DNA of 64,000 nucleotides from Chthonomonadaceae bacterium (GCA_015709495.1 CP054189.1:2046001-2110000); one strand, 5' to 3'. Positions 48,830-54,960 are shown, numbered from the stretch's first letter. Notes: a model not told the origin generated them from the sequence alone. Numbers and translations: made by a program.

Positions 48830-48985
48830 CTACTCGAACTCGGGATGTTGGAGCGCCGTAGAATGCGGAAGGCCCCTCAGCTTCCCGATCACCGCGCCGG
48901 CCCAAAGTTCGCCCGTATCGGCGCGAAGATCGACATGGTCGAATACCCCCGATCCTAGCAGGGGTTCGTCAGCAAGTTCTTTGGC
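48830..48985 (-). pseudogene. C-terminal remnant of a paralogue of the PepSY/YcdB-like protein at 54.0 kb
   Basis: A minus-strand frame of 51 codons, bounded upstream by TGA and ending at TAG (48830-48832), has no start codon. It contains GVFDHVDLRADTGELWAGAV followed by IGKLRG. The intact gene at 54010-54960 has GFFDHVSIRADTGQVWGGYV followed by SGTKLE at its C-terminus. Thus only the last part of a relative survives. At the DNA level the two are well diverged, so this is an old fragment. The match is by eye. Confidence 0.6.
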
Positions 48986-49147
48986 TCACCTCGACTTGGT
49001 TGGACACAATTGAGAACTGCAGATGGTGTTCTCCGTCAAGACCAACAAAGCGCGAACTTTCCGAAGCATGTAAGTTGCCCAGTGGGTCCCCAAGGCTGGC
49101 CTGTCTCACCTCTCTCCGAAGATTTTCCGCCTATTCTCGCTTTTCTG

Positions 49148-49156
49148 TGATACAAT
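49148..49156 (+). promoter_or_regulatory. extended -10 promoter of the C39/VKOR peptide operon
   Basis: TG-A-TACAAT, an extended -10 element with five of six consensus bases. No good -35 is present at 16-18 nt. It lies about 70 nt before the first possible start codons, the only promoter-like site before the operon. Confidence 0.45.
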
Positions 49157-49238
49157 GCCAATTAGGCTCATAGAGGGGTACTGGGGACGAAGTACTTTAG
49201 TAATTCCTTTGTGAGCGAGGGCAGGTCTTGACGGGACT

Positions 49239-50471
49239 TTGGCTGGCATTGGGCATTGGGCATTGGGCATTGGGCCCAGTTTGGATGCCTGCGTTTTCGG
49301 TGCCCGAGGATGGGAAGCCCGATTTGATCGAGTCTATATAGACGCCTGCACTATTAATCGCGGTCGTGGCGAAGTCACCAAGTTCCGATACCGAGACTGG
49401 CCTGGTCGTTACGATTTGCAATCCGAAGCCGGAGACGGTTGGTCTCGGGTTTCAATTGTTGGTGGCAGCGTTTTGACCCTAAGCGGCCGAGGACAACGAA
49501 GCACAGGAATTGCCACCGTCTATGGTACGGAGTTGGTGGACGTTGCAGAGACACTTCGTGCGGACGCTAGGATACTCCTCTTCACCCTCGGAGTTCTGGT
49601 GTACGGCGATGTTACGCTCTCTCAGGCATTGACCCGTGGCAAGGATCGATCGCTGAATGCCGTCGGCAAGGAACTGGTCGACATTCGATTCACATTGAAT
49701 GAGGGTTCGACGGTTAATGGGCGGATCCACATCCTGTTCAATTGGGTTAGGGGATTTCCCGTGCAAATAACAATGCTGGGTCCTTCCGAGCCAATTCTTC
49801 GTAGGAGTTTCTCGCCGGCATCCTGTGACCCCTCGACTTGGACTCCCATGGTGGTGAAGACTCAGGTGTGGGAGACTGGCAAAGGCTGGACACAAGGGAC
49901 GTCTGTTCGCTTCAACAGAGTTTTGCCATTAACGTCACCCCCAGTTGCCCTATCCCTTCCAGCAGGCGCAACGATTGACGATCAGGCCACCGGCTTGAAG
50001 CGTCTGATCGGTGCCCCGAAACCTCTGACAGAAAGAGACGCGGCAATCACGCTGAGGTACGCCAGCAGAGCGCAAGGGCGAGAGCGAAAAGGTGATCCCT
50101 CAGGCCCAACCTGCGGTCCAGAGTCCCTTTACTATCTTTCCCGTCTATCGGGAGTAACCACAACTCCCTCCGCCGTCTTGGGAGCTTTCAGAAAAGTCGA
50201 GGATGGTGTCAGCATGCTGGACATCAAGTCAGTTGGTGCACAACTTGGAATGAGGCTGGAAGCAACCAAGTCACCCAACCTCAACTTGCAGAGCATCCGC
50301 TTTCCCAGCATCTTGTCGACGCGTGAAAGTCACTTTGTTGTCGTTGTGCGCAAGCGCAGTTCAGACTGGGTAGTGATTGACCCTCCGTACGGCGTCAAGG
50401 TTTATACAGATGCAGCGCTTCGAACACGATGGACAGGATATGCGCTTTCTCCTGAAGGAGCAAGCCAATGA
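49239..50471 (+). CDS. C39-like cysteine protease with N-terminal LolA-like domain; 5' end uncertain
   Basis: Up to 410 residues. The C-terminal third is a C39/papain-like domain: Cys codon at 50112 (GPTCGPESLYYLSRLSG), His at 50331 (ESHFVVVV) and Asp at 50379 (WVVIDPPYG). The Gln expected six residues before the Cys in bacteriocin-processing C39 enzymes is not there. The N-terminal two-thirds (FRYRDWPGRYDLQSEAG ... FPVQITMLGP) is beta-rich and LolA/lipoprotein-sorting-like. This frame offers only TTG starts. The neighbouring frame from TTG 49228 reads MTGLWLALGIGHWALGPVW (first codon as Met), a good signal peptide, then VPEDGKPDLIESI before a stop at 49339. A frameshift near 49335 would join them. 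GC is low. The gene overlaps the next by 4 bp. Confidence 0.65.
   Translation: MAGIGHWALGIGPSLDACVFGARGWEARFDRVYIDACTINRGRGEVTKFRYRDWPGRYDLQSEAGDGWSRVSIVGGSVLTLSGRGQRSTGIATVYGTELVDVAETLRADARILLFTLGVLVYGDVTLSQALTRGKDRSLNAVGKELVDIRFTLNEGSTVNGRIHILFNWVRGFPVQITMLGPSEPILRRSFSPASCDPSTWTPMVVKTQVWETGKGWTQGTSVRFNRVLPLTSPPVALSLPAGATIDDQATGLKRLIGAPKPLTERDAAITLRYASRAQGRERKGDPSGPTCGPESLYYLSRLSGVTTTPSAVLGAFRKVEDGVSMLDIKSVGAQLGMRLEATKSPNLNLQSIRFPSILSTRESHFVVVVRKRSSDWVVIDPPYGVKVYTDAALRTRWTGYALSPEGASQ
49245..49271 (+). repeat. heptanucleotide tandem repeat (GGGCATT)x4
   Basis: Four adjacent copies of GGGCATT, the first with T in place of the first G, followed by GGGCCC. It lies inside the 5' coding region of the C39-like gene, within the putative signal-peptide codons. 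Since 7 is not a multiple of 3, each gain or loss of a unit shifts the reading frame. Confidence 0.9.
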
Positions 50472-51397
50472 AGTGGCGGTTGTCTGCGTTTCTGCTAATC
50501 GGCATTGCGCTATTCGTTGTTTTCCAAATGACGCGATCACAGGCCAGCTTTTCAGGCGAAACAACTTGGGACTTTGGAAATGTGCGGCCAAGCGAACAAT
50601 TGGAAGTGCGTTTTGCAGTGACCAACCGCGAGAACGCTCTGGCTGTTTATGGTGGATTCGAGCAGGCGTGTGGCGTAAGGCCAGCGTTTTCGAATAATGG
50701 AGTCCTGCAAGGGAATGAAAGCGGCGTGCTTACGCTGATCTCTCGAGCGACTAGAAGGCGGGGTCCGGGCGGAGCTTCATTCGTCCTTACTGAGACGATT
50801 CGAGGAATGGTCAGGGAGAGAACATATCGTCTGACGTGGAACGTTGTTGGCGGACCCTGGCTCGATGTGTCTGAACTCTGGATCGATCCCACAACCGATC
50901 TACCATCGGTCCGTGTCAGGAACGCCAGTTCAGGGGTGGCCATTTCTGTTGTTGAAGCACCGCGTGGACTACTTGCGAAGGTCACCAAGGATACAATCAC
51001 CCTCGAATTTGCGAGTCAGCCCATGTTACTCGAAGGCAAAGAATCGCTGGTCTTGGCGGTGACAGATCGAGGGAAGCGATATAGTTTTCGGATTCCCGTC
51101 TATGCTTGTGACAGGGGTGGCCCACGTATTTACCCCTCATTGTCAACCGTGACAAGTGATGGTCTCCGGAACGACATTCCTGTGGGCCGCGTTGTTGGAG
51201 GGGTTCCGGAGGGATGGAGCGTAAGCTGCGATAAGGAGATGGGTCGCGTACACTTGAAACCTGATGGCCAAATTGTTTTTCTTCCGGATGGCGCTGGGGT
51301 GGCACTCAAGGCGGGCCTGATCCGAGTTCACTTGCTTAACTCGATCGGCAAAGTTCAATCTACCGCTTTGATCAACTTTTCGGTGACGTCTTCATGA
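50468..51397 (+). CDS. exported DUF1573-like protein
   Basis: 309 residues. An N-terminal hydrophobic helix (LSAFLLIGIALFVVFQM) anchors or exports it. TWDFGNVRPSEQLEVRFAVT is the opening of a DUF1573/ASPM-SPD-2-Hydin-like Ig domain (DFG-x-V ... F-x-x-x-N), followed by a Cys (EQACGV) and two or three more beta-sandwich domains. Such domains are usually scaffolds at the outer face of the membrane. GAAGGAG precedes the ATG. It overlaps the genes on both sides by 4 bp (ATGA), so the operon is translationally coupled. No catalytic residue is visible. Confidence 0.75.
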   Translation: MKWRLSAFLLIGIALFVVFQMTRSQASFSGETTWDFGNVRPSEQLEVRFAVTNRENALAVYGGFEQACGVRPAFSNNGVLQGNESGVLTLISRATRRRGPGGASFVLTETIRGMVRERTYRLTWNVVGGPWLDVSELWIDPTTDLPSVRVRNASSGVAISVVEAPRGLLAKVTKDTITLEFASQPMLLEGKESLVLAVTDRGKRYSFRIPVYACDRGGPRIYPSLSTVTSDGLRNDIPVGRVVGGVPEGWSVSCDKEMGRVHLKPDGQIVFLPDGAGVALKAGLIRVHLLNSIGKVQSTALINFSVTSS

Positions 51398-52344
51398 GGT
51401 GGATCCGAATTGCGTTGACGCTCTGTGCCGGGACGATTTCCTTGTTGCTCGTTTGCCAGCACTTTGAGCTTATAACCATGCCTTGCAACAGATACTGTGG
51501 GGCCATCAGAGACTGGCCCCTTAGCAAGCTCGTGGCGGTTCTCGCCCTCGCGGGAGTTGTTGCTCTCGGGAAGGCCGCCTGGCTCAATCAGGACGCTGTT
51601 TTTCGGCGCTGGTCCATCTTAGGCGCAGTTGTCGCAATCTGCATGCAGGGCGTTGCTCTGGCGCTAAATGGAGCCTGTCAGAGTTGTATTGCCCTCGCTT
51701 TTCTCCTCGTCGGCCTCGGGTTGACGAACATCAAGAAGCTCGGTCTGGGATATTTGGGACTCTTAGTCGGAACAGTCGGAGTTTACGTGCTTCTCGCTGA
51801 TAAGATTGCCATGGCCCAAGCGCCGGGACCAACTCCGTTGCTGTTGCGTCCGTATGAACGGCCCATAGATCCGAGGGCCCACATCTACGTCGTAGTTGCC
51901 GATCTTGAGTGCCCTGCTTGCCGCCAACTGTCTCGGATTGAGGCTCAAAACAAGAGGTTCGACGTTGTAATCGTCTTTCGGTGGTATTTGCAACCAGCTA
52001 GCTCTGCACGTACTCGACGTGCAGCTCTCGTCATCGAAGGGATTTCAGAGCAAGACTGGGCTAAGGGCGCAACCCTTAGGCGCTCCTTGTTTGCCTCTCA
52101 GGAGCCCCTCACTGACCAAACTATTCTGCGGGTCGCGGATTCCTTGGGAATGCGTGGCGAAGCTGAATCACTCCTCCAAATAGCGCCTGACCGACTCCTG
52201 TACTGGATTGCCGAGGACGGCAAGACGTTCACGTCCCTTGGTGTAAGCGAGGTGCCGTACGTGTTTGACACGGCTGGCAAGCGTCGGATTCTCGGACATT
52301 CAAGTACGCAAGTGATCGAGTCTTTCGCGCAACCAACAAGTTAG
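51394..52344 (+). CDS. VKOR-like / DsbA-like fusion, disulfide-forming membrane protein
   Basis: 316 residues. Residues 1-140 have four or more hydrophobic helices with a loop pair Cys31/Cys35 (PCNRYCG) and a CxxC at 95-98 (GACQSCIAL) at a helix start, as in vitamin K epoxide reductase-type quinone-linked oxidases. From about 160 there is a thioredoxin-fold domain with active site CPAC at 173-176 (VVVADLECPACRQL) and the cis-Pro loop SEVPYVFDT near residue 290. Fused VKOR-thioredoxin proteins oxidise cysteines of exported proteins and pass electrons to quinone. It sits directly before the gene for an eight-cysteine secreted peptide, its likely substrate. Confidence 0.8.
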   Translation: MRWIRIALTLCAGTISLLLVCQHFELITMPCNRYCGAIRDWPLSKLVAVLALAGVVALGKAAWLNQDAVFRRWSILGAVVAICMQGVALALNGACQSCIALAFLLVGLGLTNIKKLGLGYLGLLVGTVGVYVLLADKIAMAQAPGPTPLLLRPYERPIDPRAHIYVVVADLECPACRQLSRIEAQNKRFDVVIVFRWYLQPASSARTRRAALVIEGISEQDWAKGATLRRSLFASQEPLTDQTILRVADSLGMRGEAESLLQIAPDRLLYWIAEDGKTFTSLGVSEVPYVFDTAGKRRILGHSSTQVIESFAQPTS

Positions 52345-52365
52345 GAAACGATAGGAGAATTCACC

Positions 52366-52761
52366 ATGAAGAAAAGAAAGTGGATGAAATGGCTACTGAT
52401 TCCGTTTGCGGTAATCTCAGCAGGGGTGGCCTTCCCTCGGCCTGCAACTGCAGTGGCGCCGACCAATGCGGAGCTTGACCTGGTCGTTGGAGGGATCTTT
52501 ACTGAGTGCGATGGCGACACCCCTTGCAACGTAGGATGCTGGGTCAACGGATCCGGCAGCAAGTTCATCTATAACAACGGTGCAAAGACATGTGGGTCAC
52601 CTGCCTTAGCAAACTGCTCCAATGGGACGCCGACAACCTGCTACGTTAGGTACCATACGTATTCTGGCTGTAACAGCCCCTACGGGGATGGTTCCTATAC
52701 GGCCAATGCGTGTTCGGGTGGCACTATTGGGCCGCCACCGCCACTTCCATCGGAGCAGTAA
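52366..52761 (+). CDS. secreted cysteine-rich peptide precursor with double-glycine leader
   Basis: 131 residues, strong AGGAGA before the ATG. Residues 1-29 form a Sec-type signal peptide (KKRKWMKWLL ... PATA). Residues 30-43 end in ELDLVVGG, a close match to the double-glycine leader consensus cut by C39 peptidases. The part after Gly43 has all eight cysteines (48, 54, 58, 76, 84, 92, 102, 116), many Gly, Asn, Ser and Thr, and a proline-rich end (GPPPPLPSEQ). The leader has no Cys. This predicts a secreted peptide of about 88 residues with four disulfides. It may be a bacteriocin, toxin or signalling peptide. No homologue is known to me. Confidence 0.75.
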   Translation: MKKRKWMKWLLIPFAVISAGVAFPRPATAVAPTNAELDLVVGGIFTECDGDTPCNVGCWVNGSGSKFIYNNGAKTCGSPALANCSNGTPTTCYVRYHTYSGCNSPYGDGSYTANACSGGTIGPPPPLPSEQ

Positions 52762-52763
52762 TC

Positions 52764-53483
52764 ATGAATCAGGCGCGCCGTAGGTGTCCGGTCGGAGCAT
52801 TCACGCTCATCGAGACCACCGTTACAATTGCAGCTGTTTGTGCTCTGACTAGTATCGTGTTGCCCGTGCTCGCAAAGGCACGTGCGCGGGCGATCGAGAG
52901 TTCGAGCGCAAGCAACCTTCGCCAACTCGGCGGGGCGATTCATCTCTACGCCATAGACAACGATGGCGCGCCACCTCCCTATACGAATGCCGAATCACTC
53001 TTGTACTTTTACGAGAATCCAGTGGGCTTGTTGGGAGACCTTCCTACGAACTCAGAAATGCCTCGAATGTTGCGAGACAGCCTTGAACCCTATGTTCGTT
53101 CGCAAGATGTGTGGTTTAGTCCCGCAGATCCTGTAAAGGGCCAGGACCGGTACTATCTGGGGATTCGACATAGGTACTTGAGTTACGCTTACGGGGGCGT
53201 CTACGAGGGAGGTACTGCGGTTTGGCGATATGTTACGGAGAACCTGACTCCGCCTCCTTCACTACCGCTTGACGTCTTGCCTCAGAAGCAGCCGATCATG
53301 TGCGAACCCGCTTCTGGTGGAGATGAGGCGTTCAATGAACCCAGCCTAACGTGGTCAGGAAACAGCACGCGAGGATATCATTCAAGCGGGATGGGCTATT
53401 ACTTGTTTCCTGACCTACATGTGAAGGCGTATCCTGTGGGGCGCAAGTTTAGAGTCGGAGATCCTCCAGAGTCATACTGGTGA
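52764..53483 (+). CDS. prepilin-like protein in the peptide operon
   Basis: 239 residues from the ATG at 52764, two bases after the precursor's stop codon. The prepilin-like N-terminus is CPVGA-FTLIETTVTIAAVCA with Glu at position 5 after the cleavage site; the residue before Phe is Ala instead of Gly. SSASNLRQLGGAIHLYAIDND and the C-terminal GYYLFPDLHVKAY follow the DUF1559-like pattern, as in the protein at 15.3 kb. It may form a pseudopilus for release of the peptide or may be an unrelated surface protein. GC is low like the rest of the operon. Confidence 0.8.
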   Translation: MNQARRRCPVGAFTLIETTVTIAAVCALTSIVLPVLAKARARAIESSSASNLRQLGGAIHLYAIDNDGAPPPYTNAESLLYFYENPVGLLGDLPTNSEMPRMLRDSLEPYVRSQDVWFSPADPVKGQDRYYLGIRHRYLSYAYGGVYEGGTAVWRYVTENLTPPPSLPLDVLPQKQPIMCEPASGGDEAFNEPSLTWSGNSTRGYHSSGMGYYLFPDLHVKAYPVGRKFRVGDPPESYW

Positions 53484-53528
53484 GCCTGAGCCAAGGAAAG
53501 TGTGGCGAATGTCTCCATTCTGTGTTGC

Positions 53529-53565
53529 GTCTCGGAACAGCCCAGTAGTAGCTGAGCCGCGAGAC
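53529..53565 (+). terminator. hairpin downstream of the peptide operon
   Basis: A 6-bp stem GTCTCG / CGAGAC closes a 25-nt loop that has further internal pairing (AGC / GCT). No T tract follows. It is a candidate end of the operon transcript. Confidence 0.3.
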
Positions 53566-53669
53566 GGTGAGGTCGGTCTTGCCAAGCTGTCGTGTGGACA
53601 TGGTGCCAAGGGGATTCTATCCTCTCGTGGAGCGGCGGCCTTTCGGAGTGCTTCGGCATGGCCGCCGCC

Positions 53670-53855
53670 TTAAGTCGCTGCATTCTCCAAAAATCGTCTT
53701 GCTGGAGACCATTGTGTGTGCTTGCGCTCGAAAGAACGGCCTCGAAGCTCACTTCTCGACGACGTTACTGCTACTGAGTCATCGAGGAGCGCGTTGAGTG
53801 ACCACGTTCCCGCAGCGACCGCCAGCGATGCGACGACTGTATAGAGTGGGCGCAT
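53670..53855 (-). CDS. possible 61-residue exported peptide
   Basis: A minus-strand frame from ATG 53855 begins MRPLYTVVASLAVAAGTW, like a signal peptide or single membrane helix, and ends in a polar, basic region. No good Shine-Dalgarno is present; GAGAAG lies about 17 nt upstream with a TATTAT between. It could be a chance frame or the broken 5' end of an old gene. Confidence 0.25.
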   Translation of the reverse strand: MRPLYTVVASLAVAAGTWSLNALLDDSVAVTSSRSELRGRSFERKHTQWSPARRFLENAAT

Positions 53856-54009
53856 AATGCTGATAATAACACTTCTCGGAGCGCGCGGAATGACGCAAGG
53901 AAAGTGCCGGTAATGTTACCAGGTGACGATAGGACACAGGAACTCCACAAGACTCCCATTGGCGACGCGCACAGTCCTAGCCGCCCGGTTGGTCCCGCGT
54001 GATCGTCGT

Positions 54010-54960
54010 TCAGCCTACTTGCTCAAAAGCAGACCCGAGGGTCGAGGTTGCCCCTTCCTCAAGCTTCGTTCCGCTCACATAACCTCCCCACACTTGTCCC
54101 GTGTCAGCGCGGATGCTGACGTGGTCAAAGAATCCAGGCATGGTGGCTGGTCCAAACCGAACGCGATAGACCAAGCGTGCTTGATACGGCGCGCGCTGAA
54201 AACCTGATGGGGAGCCATTCCAGCCATTCGGAACCGCATAACCCAGCCCAACTACATCCGCCTCATCTTTGGTGGCTCTCAAAGGTCGTCCCTTGTCCGA
54301 ACAGTAGGAGCTGTACGCACGCCAAGCAAGATCTTTCGCCTGAGCCTCAGTAACCCGAATCTCCGTAGGTGTCACTTCGTATTCACGATCCTGTTCGATC
54401 TCGACGATGCGGCCCGTCTCCGAATCCAAACCGATGACCAATTGAGGACCCAACGAATAGAATTGGTAGGGACCCAAGTCCGGCTTGAAGTTGGCGAAGT
54501 AGTAACCCCAGAGGGACTTCGTCGGGTCGTCCGGATGAAATGCATATCGCATTTTCGCGTTCGGCCATACCCCGAGCTTGTTCGCAATCGAGCGCAGTTC
54601 CATTTTGGCGTCTTCGTCCGACGCGAAATGCCGAAGGCCGGTGCGACGGGAGTCCGTGCGGACGCTATGGGAGCCGTCGGTCAAGCTCAATCGCACCAAG
54701 TCCCCAGTCCGAGAATCCAACAACAACTCATAGTTGTCGGTTCCGAAGACCCATTGCCGCCTCTCTCCTCGGTACGTCATCATAAACTTGGAACGCCACT
54801 CAGAGAATCCGAGGTTCAGGTCCCTTGCAAGCAGGTTGGCTTTCTGCTGGATGCGCTCGAAAGGCAGGTCGCCGGGTTGCGGGGTCGCTTCCTCGCCCTG
54901 TGGAGCGTGCATCGAGAAGCCCACCGAAAGGGCAGCGATCATCGTTGAAACGGTTATCAT
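54010..54960 (-). CDS. secreted PepSY/YcdB-like protein
   Basis: 316 residues from the ATG at 54960, chosen for its GGAGGG Shine-Dalgarno and the clean signal peptide ITVSTMIAALSVGFSMHAPQ. The body has repeated alternation of RTGDLVRLSL, ETGRIVEIEQ and DTGQVWGGYV turns (x-TG-x-V/I), characteristic of PepSY/YcdB-like repeats, with helices such as TEAQAKDLAWRAYSSY between. PepSY domains are thought to inhibit proteases or modulate secreted enzymes. It is the intact relative of the remnant at 48.8 kb. A promoter lies directly upstream. Confidence 0.7.
   Translation of the reverse strand: MITVSTMIAALSVGFSMHAPQGEEATPQPGDLPFERIQQKANLLARDLNLGFSEWRSKFMMTYRGERRQWVFGTDNYELLLDSRTGDLVRLSLTDGSHSVRTDSRRTGLRHFASDEDAKMELRSIANKLGVWPNAKMRYAFHPDDPTKSLWGYYFANFKPDLGPYQFYSLGPQLVIGLDSETGRIVEIEQDREYEVTPTEIRVTEAQAKDLAWRAYSSYCSDKGRPLRATKDEADVVGLGYAVPNGWNGSPSGFQRAPYQARLVYRVRFGPATMPGFFDHVSIRADTGQVWGGYVSGTKLEEGATSTLGSAFEQVG

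Follow-up and report, generated by a model that had tools for sequence, protein, structure and literature searches.

A five-gene operon in a 64,000-nucleotide stretch of DNA from a Chthonomonadaceae bacterium (GCA_015709495.1, CP054189.1:2046001-2110000; hereafter, the window) raises the question of how a precursor peptide that has both a Sec-type signal and a double-glycine (GG) leader is matured beside a C39 peptidase that has no ABC transporter. A preliminary description of this DNA had proposed export by Sec, oxidation, and then GG cleavage outside the cytoplasm. Our analysis supports that interpretation, all of whose steps are predicted, and neither of the two circumstances examined that were named as contrary to it (homologous loci devoid of a GG peptide and a C39 domain without a formed Cys-His-Asp site) was encountered. 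We consider it probable, from the sequences, that the operon matures a secreted, disulfide-rich peptide by a Sec-dependent route in which double-glycine processing is extracytoplasmic. This analysis establishes the existence of a peptide family, its leader, its common cysteine framework, and its link to export-type C39 genes.

The precursor peptide and its family

The window peptide has 131 residues, with eight cysteines at positions 48, 54, 58, 76, 84, 92, 102, and 116. Its ELDLVVGG segment ends at Gly43, and the predicted mature chain of 88 residues (~9 kDa) begins at Ile44. The combination of a signal, ELDLVVGG, and eight cysteines had been noted previously and was found as stated. Relatives were located from C39 matches in the phylum, whose loci recurrently had a small open reading frame (ORF) combining a hydrophobic signal with a GG-type leader and a core rich in cysteine, and the contigs were scanned with two motifs, both derived from Armatimonadota proteins. 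After removal of known duplicate contigs, 47 family members remained, distributed over 40 loci in Armatimonadota and Poribacteria. Its leader consensus, L[S/T]xxE[M/L]xx[V/I/A]xGG, is that of a canonical double-glycine leader, and the features of such leaders (L at -12, E at -8, L/M at -7, V/I at -4, and GG) are present across the family. In an alignment of 19 family peptides (A3), the cysteines at 48, 54, 92, and 102 in window numbering were invariant and that at 58 was nearly so. A family hidden Markov model (HMM) trained without the window peptide recovered it (Table 1). Searches with the window peptide against NCBIfam and Pfam, with ten relatives against NCBIfam, and with five against Pfam returned nothing above a curated cut-off. 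The curated leader models TIGR01847 and TIGR04149 did not match the window peptide and matched relatives only below threshold, as for the L058 peptide with TIGR04149 (8e-4). The window peptide is a member of an undescribed family with a Sec-type signal, a double-glycine leader, and a cysteine-rich core.

Homologous loci did not lack such a peptide, as 38 of the 47 members have a C39 gene within 4 kb on the same strand, at 35 loci (28 in Armatimonadota and 7 in Poribacteria). This count partly reflects selection because much of the 47-member set came via C39. A less biased sample was obtained by searching 251 genomes with the peptide profile only, which gave ten new loci, excluding one doubtful match inside a long frame. 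C39 was on the same contig in seven of these ten, and two of the three remaining loci were on contigs shorter than 5 kb. We also constructed a position-specific scoring matrix (PSSM) from 18 leaders, with the window leader excluded. At a threshold of at least 8 bits, it detected 41 of 233 ORFs near C39 genes versus 11 of 226 elsewhere, in an ORF set that retains the training peptides and in which some contigs are counted twice. Outside the training set, 21 distinct ORFs near C39 genes reached this threshold, the Poribacteria peptides among them, and most of the 11 ORFs found elsewhere were further family members.

One contig (L102) was observed to have three family peptides, and after each of them comes a seemingly exported protein of ~400 residues. 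Near another peptide locus, the ORF at L044:8879-10357 had glutaredoxin/thioredoxin-like, DsbD-like, and sigma-70 matches, of which only PF08281 (sigma-70 region 4) was above its cut-off.

The C39 peptidase and the neighboring proteins

The window C39 protein matched PF03412 at 53.6 bits (cut-off 22) and was the only product of the five operon genes to pass a Pfam cut-off. It was also recovered by a C39 profile made without it (2.3e-20). C39 is its only recognized domain and is preceded by ~280 residues. A LolA-like identity for this N-terminal region was considered and is unsupported (hhalign against LolA-like homologues: probability 0.8, E-value 0.073). The candidate catalytic residues Cys292, His365, and Asp381 are present in the sequence, and the C39 domain was modeled with a predicted local distance difference test score (pLDDT) of ~90 over residues 290-405. 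The best structural match of the model was 6MPZ, the complex of the LahT protease with a leader (Z-score 16.2, root-mean-square deviation 2.3, 121 residues). The model is a confident one and has the C39 fold. Among 66 distinct C39 domains of the family, the Cys was found in 59 of the 62 domains that have a residue at that position, the His in 64 of 66, and the Asp in 52 of 66. In three Poribacteria homologues (L200, L201, and L202), the catalytic Cys is replaced by Ser or has no residue aligned with it.

As the preliminary description had indicated, no C39 ABC exporter was found. No ABC transporter domains are fused to the window C39, and it is the sole C39 protein of the genome above the cut-off, the only other match being sub-threshold in a 199-residue frame. 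Export of the protease, which cleavage outside the cytoplasm would require, is backed by its homologues, since 67 of 73 related C39 proteins have an export-like, N-terminal hydrophobic segment; this was judged by hydropathy rather than a signal-peptide predictor, in a set that includes some contigs twice. However, the window copy itself does not have such a segment.

The DUF1573-like protein scored 17.5 bits against PF07610, under the cut-off of 26.1, and PF07884 (VKOR) did not match the window VKOR-DsbA protein above its cut-off. Both assignments find support in relatives: DUF1573 was found at 1.7e-15 in a C39 fusion protein of L047, and an aligned homologue of the VKOR-DsbA protein in L149 matched PF07884 at 4.2e-13. 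The DUF1573-like protein has a single N-terminal hydrophobic segment and aligned homologues in L107 and L149, and is a probable envelope anchor or scaffold. In the VKOR-DsbA protein, C31, C35, C95, and C98 of the VKOR part and C173 and C176 of the DsbA CxxC motif were invariant in four homologues, and DsbA-like structures in the PDB were matched at 2.4e-7. The fusion is accordingly a predicted disulfide-forming oxidase. A second VKOR-DsbA fusion was noted upstream of the operon in L149 (L149:7284-8387). With regard to the N-terminal methylation motif of type IV prepilins, the prepilin-like protein matched TIGR01710 below the cut-off, and its L107 homologue passes PF07963 at 1.3e-7.

The gene order C39, DUF1573-like, VKOR-DsbA, peptide was the same in the window, L107, and L149. 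The prepilin-like gene is syntenic in L107 and absent from L149. The operon is considered to be beyond chance because the peptide and C39 were each recovered by profiles that excluded them and the gene order is repeated in two other genomes. A search of 85 family genomes found the DUF1573-like subunit in three, all of which carry the operon.

A predicted pathway and its alternatives

The most economical reading of these data, we infer, is Sec export followed by oxidation and then C39 cleavage outside the cytoplasm. Sec would carry the precursor across the inner membrane, after which signal peptidase would take off its signal. The membrane VKOR-DsbA protein, to judge from its domains and conserved redox cysteines, would create disulfide bonds between cysteines of the eight-cysteine core. 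The exported C39, with the DUF1573-like protein as its likely envelope partner, would then bind the helical leader via hydrophobic residues at the counterparts of -12, -7, and -4, and a cut after Gly43 would free the 88-residue peptide. Specificity of the C39 for the GG leader is suggested by the leader, the fold, and the genetic linkage. Our leading guess, held at somewhat under even odds, is that the mature peptide acts as a secreted bacteriocin-like or cell-contact effector, given the diversification of the cores, the presence of more than one in some genomes, the patchiness of the operon, and its position on a stretch that is gained or lost. If the pathway is correct, double-glycine processing is uncoupled from ABC transport, export-type C39 peptidases have plausible natural substrates, and bacteria have a new way of finishing secreted peptides. 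Two phyla that have received little study would also prove to have a family of secreted, cysteine-rich peptides that has escaped annotation, together with proteases of directly testable specificity.

Several observations weigh against this pathway. The window leader is divergent, with Pro at -12 (E at -8, L at -7, V at -4, and GG are kept); it scored 6.4 bits with the PSSM and ranked second among the ORFs of the window, behind an unrelated ORF. The structure model of the window peptide was poor (pLDDT 45). The L105 peptide has no clear GG motif, no peptide was detected at the homologous locus L043, and no C39 was found near the family peptide at L103. VKOR-DsbA was encountered in three family operons only. 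The syntenic C39 gene of L107 has an in-frame TAA (L107:5888-5890) and Ser at the Asp position. Finally, a clear signal peptide is missing from the C39 ORF of the window.

The start of the C39 gene bears on whether the operon functions in this genome. The operon had been described as beginning at 49228, but the TTG there is out of the C39 frame, in which TTG 49239 is the first start. Directly downstream is a tract of 4.4 copies of a 7-bp repeat whose pattern is unique to this site in the genome. If the tract had two or five copies, translation from TTG 49228 would pass through a hydrophobic stretch into the C39 frame; the four now present lead to a stop after 37 codons, which leaves the best hydrophobic start out of frame. 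The tract may be a sign of phase variation or of decay, or the start may have been misread, and in this genome the protease may be silent or made from a weak start. An operon that is silenced or in decay here, its C39 having lost its signal-peptide start via the heptanucleotide tract while the system works elsewhere, is a possibility that we consider real although unlikely. The dependence of the TTG 49228 frame on copy number, the absence of a hydrophobic N-terminus from TTG 49239, and the in-frame stop in the L107 orthologue would fit such a state, whereas the C39 frame is open for 410 codons with its Cys, His, and Asp intact, the downstream genes are intact with 4-bp overlaps, and the alternative start gives no positively charged n-region. 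This would be a local state, compatible with extracytoplasmic maturation as the explanation for the family.

The other alternatives concern the protease and leader themselves. A non-proteolytic role for the C39, as a substrate receptor or chaperone on which the leader only docks in the manner of type I C39-like domains, is improbable: Cys-less C39-like domains do behave in this way (PMC6363468), and the Cys was lost in the three Poribacteria homologues, but the catalytic residues are mostly kept and the fold matches active proteases. We regard as very improbable a reversed order of events, in which precursor cleavage by C39 takes place in the cytoplasm and precedes export. Although classical C39 works in the cytoplasm and the window C39 ORF has no signal, prior cleavage after GG would take away the Sec signal, most homologues have export-like N-termini, and the genome has no C39-ABC exporter. 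Least likely of all is a chance resemblance of the leader, in which case the peptide would be just another cysteine-rich protein secreted by Sec and C39 would act elsewhere, for example, on the prepilin-like protein. The low score of the window leader is in keeping with that idea; the leader has been kept in dozens of members from two phyla, despite diverging cores, and L149 has no prepilin-like gene, both of which argue against it.

Genomic setting and known systems

The operon of five plus-strand genes was confirmed as described, with its ORFs, spacings, and peptide features all reproduced (Table 1). In a blastn comparison of the window with L061, the alignment ended at 48938 and restarted at 54054; on this evidence, a genome of the same species (G085) has 60 bp in place of the intervening stretch. 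The GC content of this stretch is 54.7%, versus 60.6% across the window. We read the operon as having probably been gained or lost as one unit.

Table 1. Coordinates of the operon, the parts of its peptide, and the large ORFs with GG-type leaders at other loci.
Feature	Position	Strand	Remarks
C39 peptidase gene	49239..50471	+	PF03412 2.6e-14; 410-residue ORF
DUF1573-like protein gene	50468..51397	+	PF07610 0.0043, sub-threshold; 4-bp overlap with C39 gene
VKOR-DsbA fusion gene	51394..52344	+	Thioredoxin_4 0.0019, sub-threshold; 4-bp overlap with DUF1573-like gene
Precursor peptide gene	52366..52761	+	21-bp gap after VKOR-DsbA gene; family HMM without window peptide 9.4e-7
Prepilin-like gene (putative pseudopilin N-terminus)	52764..53483	+	ATG start; 2-bp gap after peptide gene; TIGR01710 1.6e-4
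Low-GC 5.1-kb stretch containing operon	48939..54053		blastn break versus same-species genome
Heptanucleotide repeat (GGCATTG)x4.4, 5' end of C39 gene	49245..49275	+	TRF, 100% match
Window peptide, Sec-type signal	residues ~1-29
Window peptide, GG leader	residues 32-43		PTNAELDLVVGG
Window peptide, core	from Ile44		88 residues
Large ORF with GG-type leader	L160:5605-9288
Large ORF with GG-type leader	L157:6195-10028
Large ORF with GG-type leader	L151:3-2543
Large ORF with GG-type leader	L152:1221-3416
Large ORF with GG-type leader	L154:2-2563
Large ORF with GG-type leader	L158:1483-5409
Large ORF with GG-type leader	L163:1245-5498
Large ORF with GG-type leader	L049:831-4955
Large ORF with GG-type leader	L057:3141-7334

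GG-type leader motifs were also observed near the N-termini of large ORFs adjoining export-type C39 genes, for example, LSPTEMNAILGG in L160. Among those listed in Table 1, Pfam identified RHS repeats in L160, L151, and L049 only.

The proposal that the locus represents a candidate new system was fair as a label, but it missed the precedent of a periplasmic C39 in FapD, and the dedicated VKOR-DsbA is limited to three operons. In the literature, of which our coverage was partial, we recognized no described system of C39 with DUF1573, in Armatimonadetes, or combining Sec with double-glycine processing, and no paper turned up on NVEALA as a potential parallel. On balance, we favor an undescribed two-step envelope pathway in two phyla, in which Sec and signal peptidase, and then an exported C39 acting at a double-glycine leader, would process cysteine-rich peptides and, separately, large RHS-repeat proteins.

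The best precedent comes from the Fap amyloid system of Pseudomonas, in which FapD is a Sec-exported periplasmic C39 whose catalytic Cys is required for secretion (PMC5557850). Like FapD, the window C39 has no ABC transporter and is predicted to be exported by Sec, and the FapD model (NF058616) was its best NCBIfam match (3.7e-7), at 29.7 bits against a cut-off of 330 bits. The Fap proteins were reported to be without canonical C39 sequences and the target of FapD to be unclear (PMC5557850, PMC6173800), whereas most loci here offer a GG-leader substrate. The authors of the FapD study described this class of C39 as uncharacterized (PMC5557850), and nothing further on FapD was found among the papers listed from 2019 on. 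With the PCAT/AMS proteins (LahT, ComA, and PCAT1), the system shares the C39 fold and the leader logic of hydrophobic -12, -7, and -4 positions and GG. The LahT structure shows hydrophobic pockets that accommodate residues -4, -7, and -12 of the leader (PMC6363468), and the leader positions of the peptide family correspond to these pockets. The system differs from the PCAT/AMS proteins in having no transporter domains, a substrate with its own Sec-type signal, and processing that is predicted to be extracytoplasmic. Double-glycine bacteriocins and TIGR04149 peptides have a similar leader motif, but here a Sec-type signal precedes the leader and the cysteine-rich core has a common framework. 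The Tox-PL-C39 domains of polymorphic toxins (PMC3482391) are likewise C39-related peptidases tied to RHS toxin systems; those are predicted toxin domains, whereas here a separate export-type C39 gene lies beside RHS proteins with a signal and a GG-type leader.
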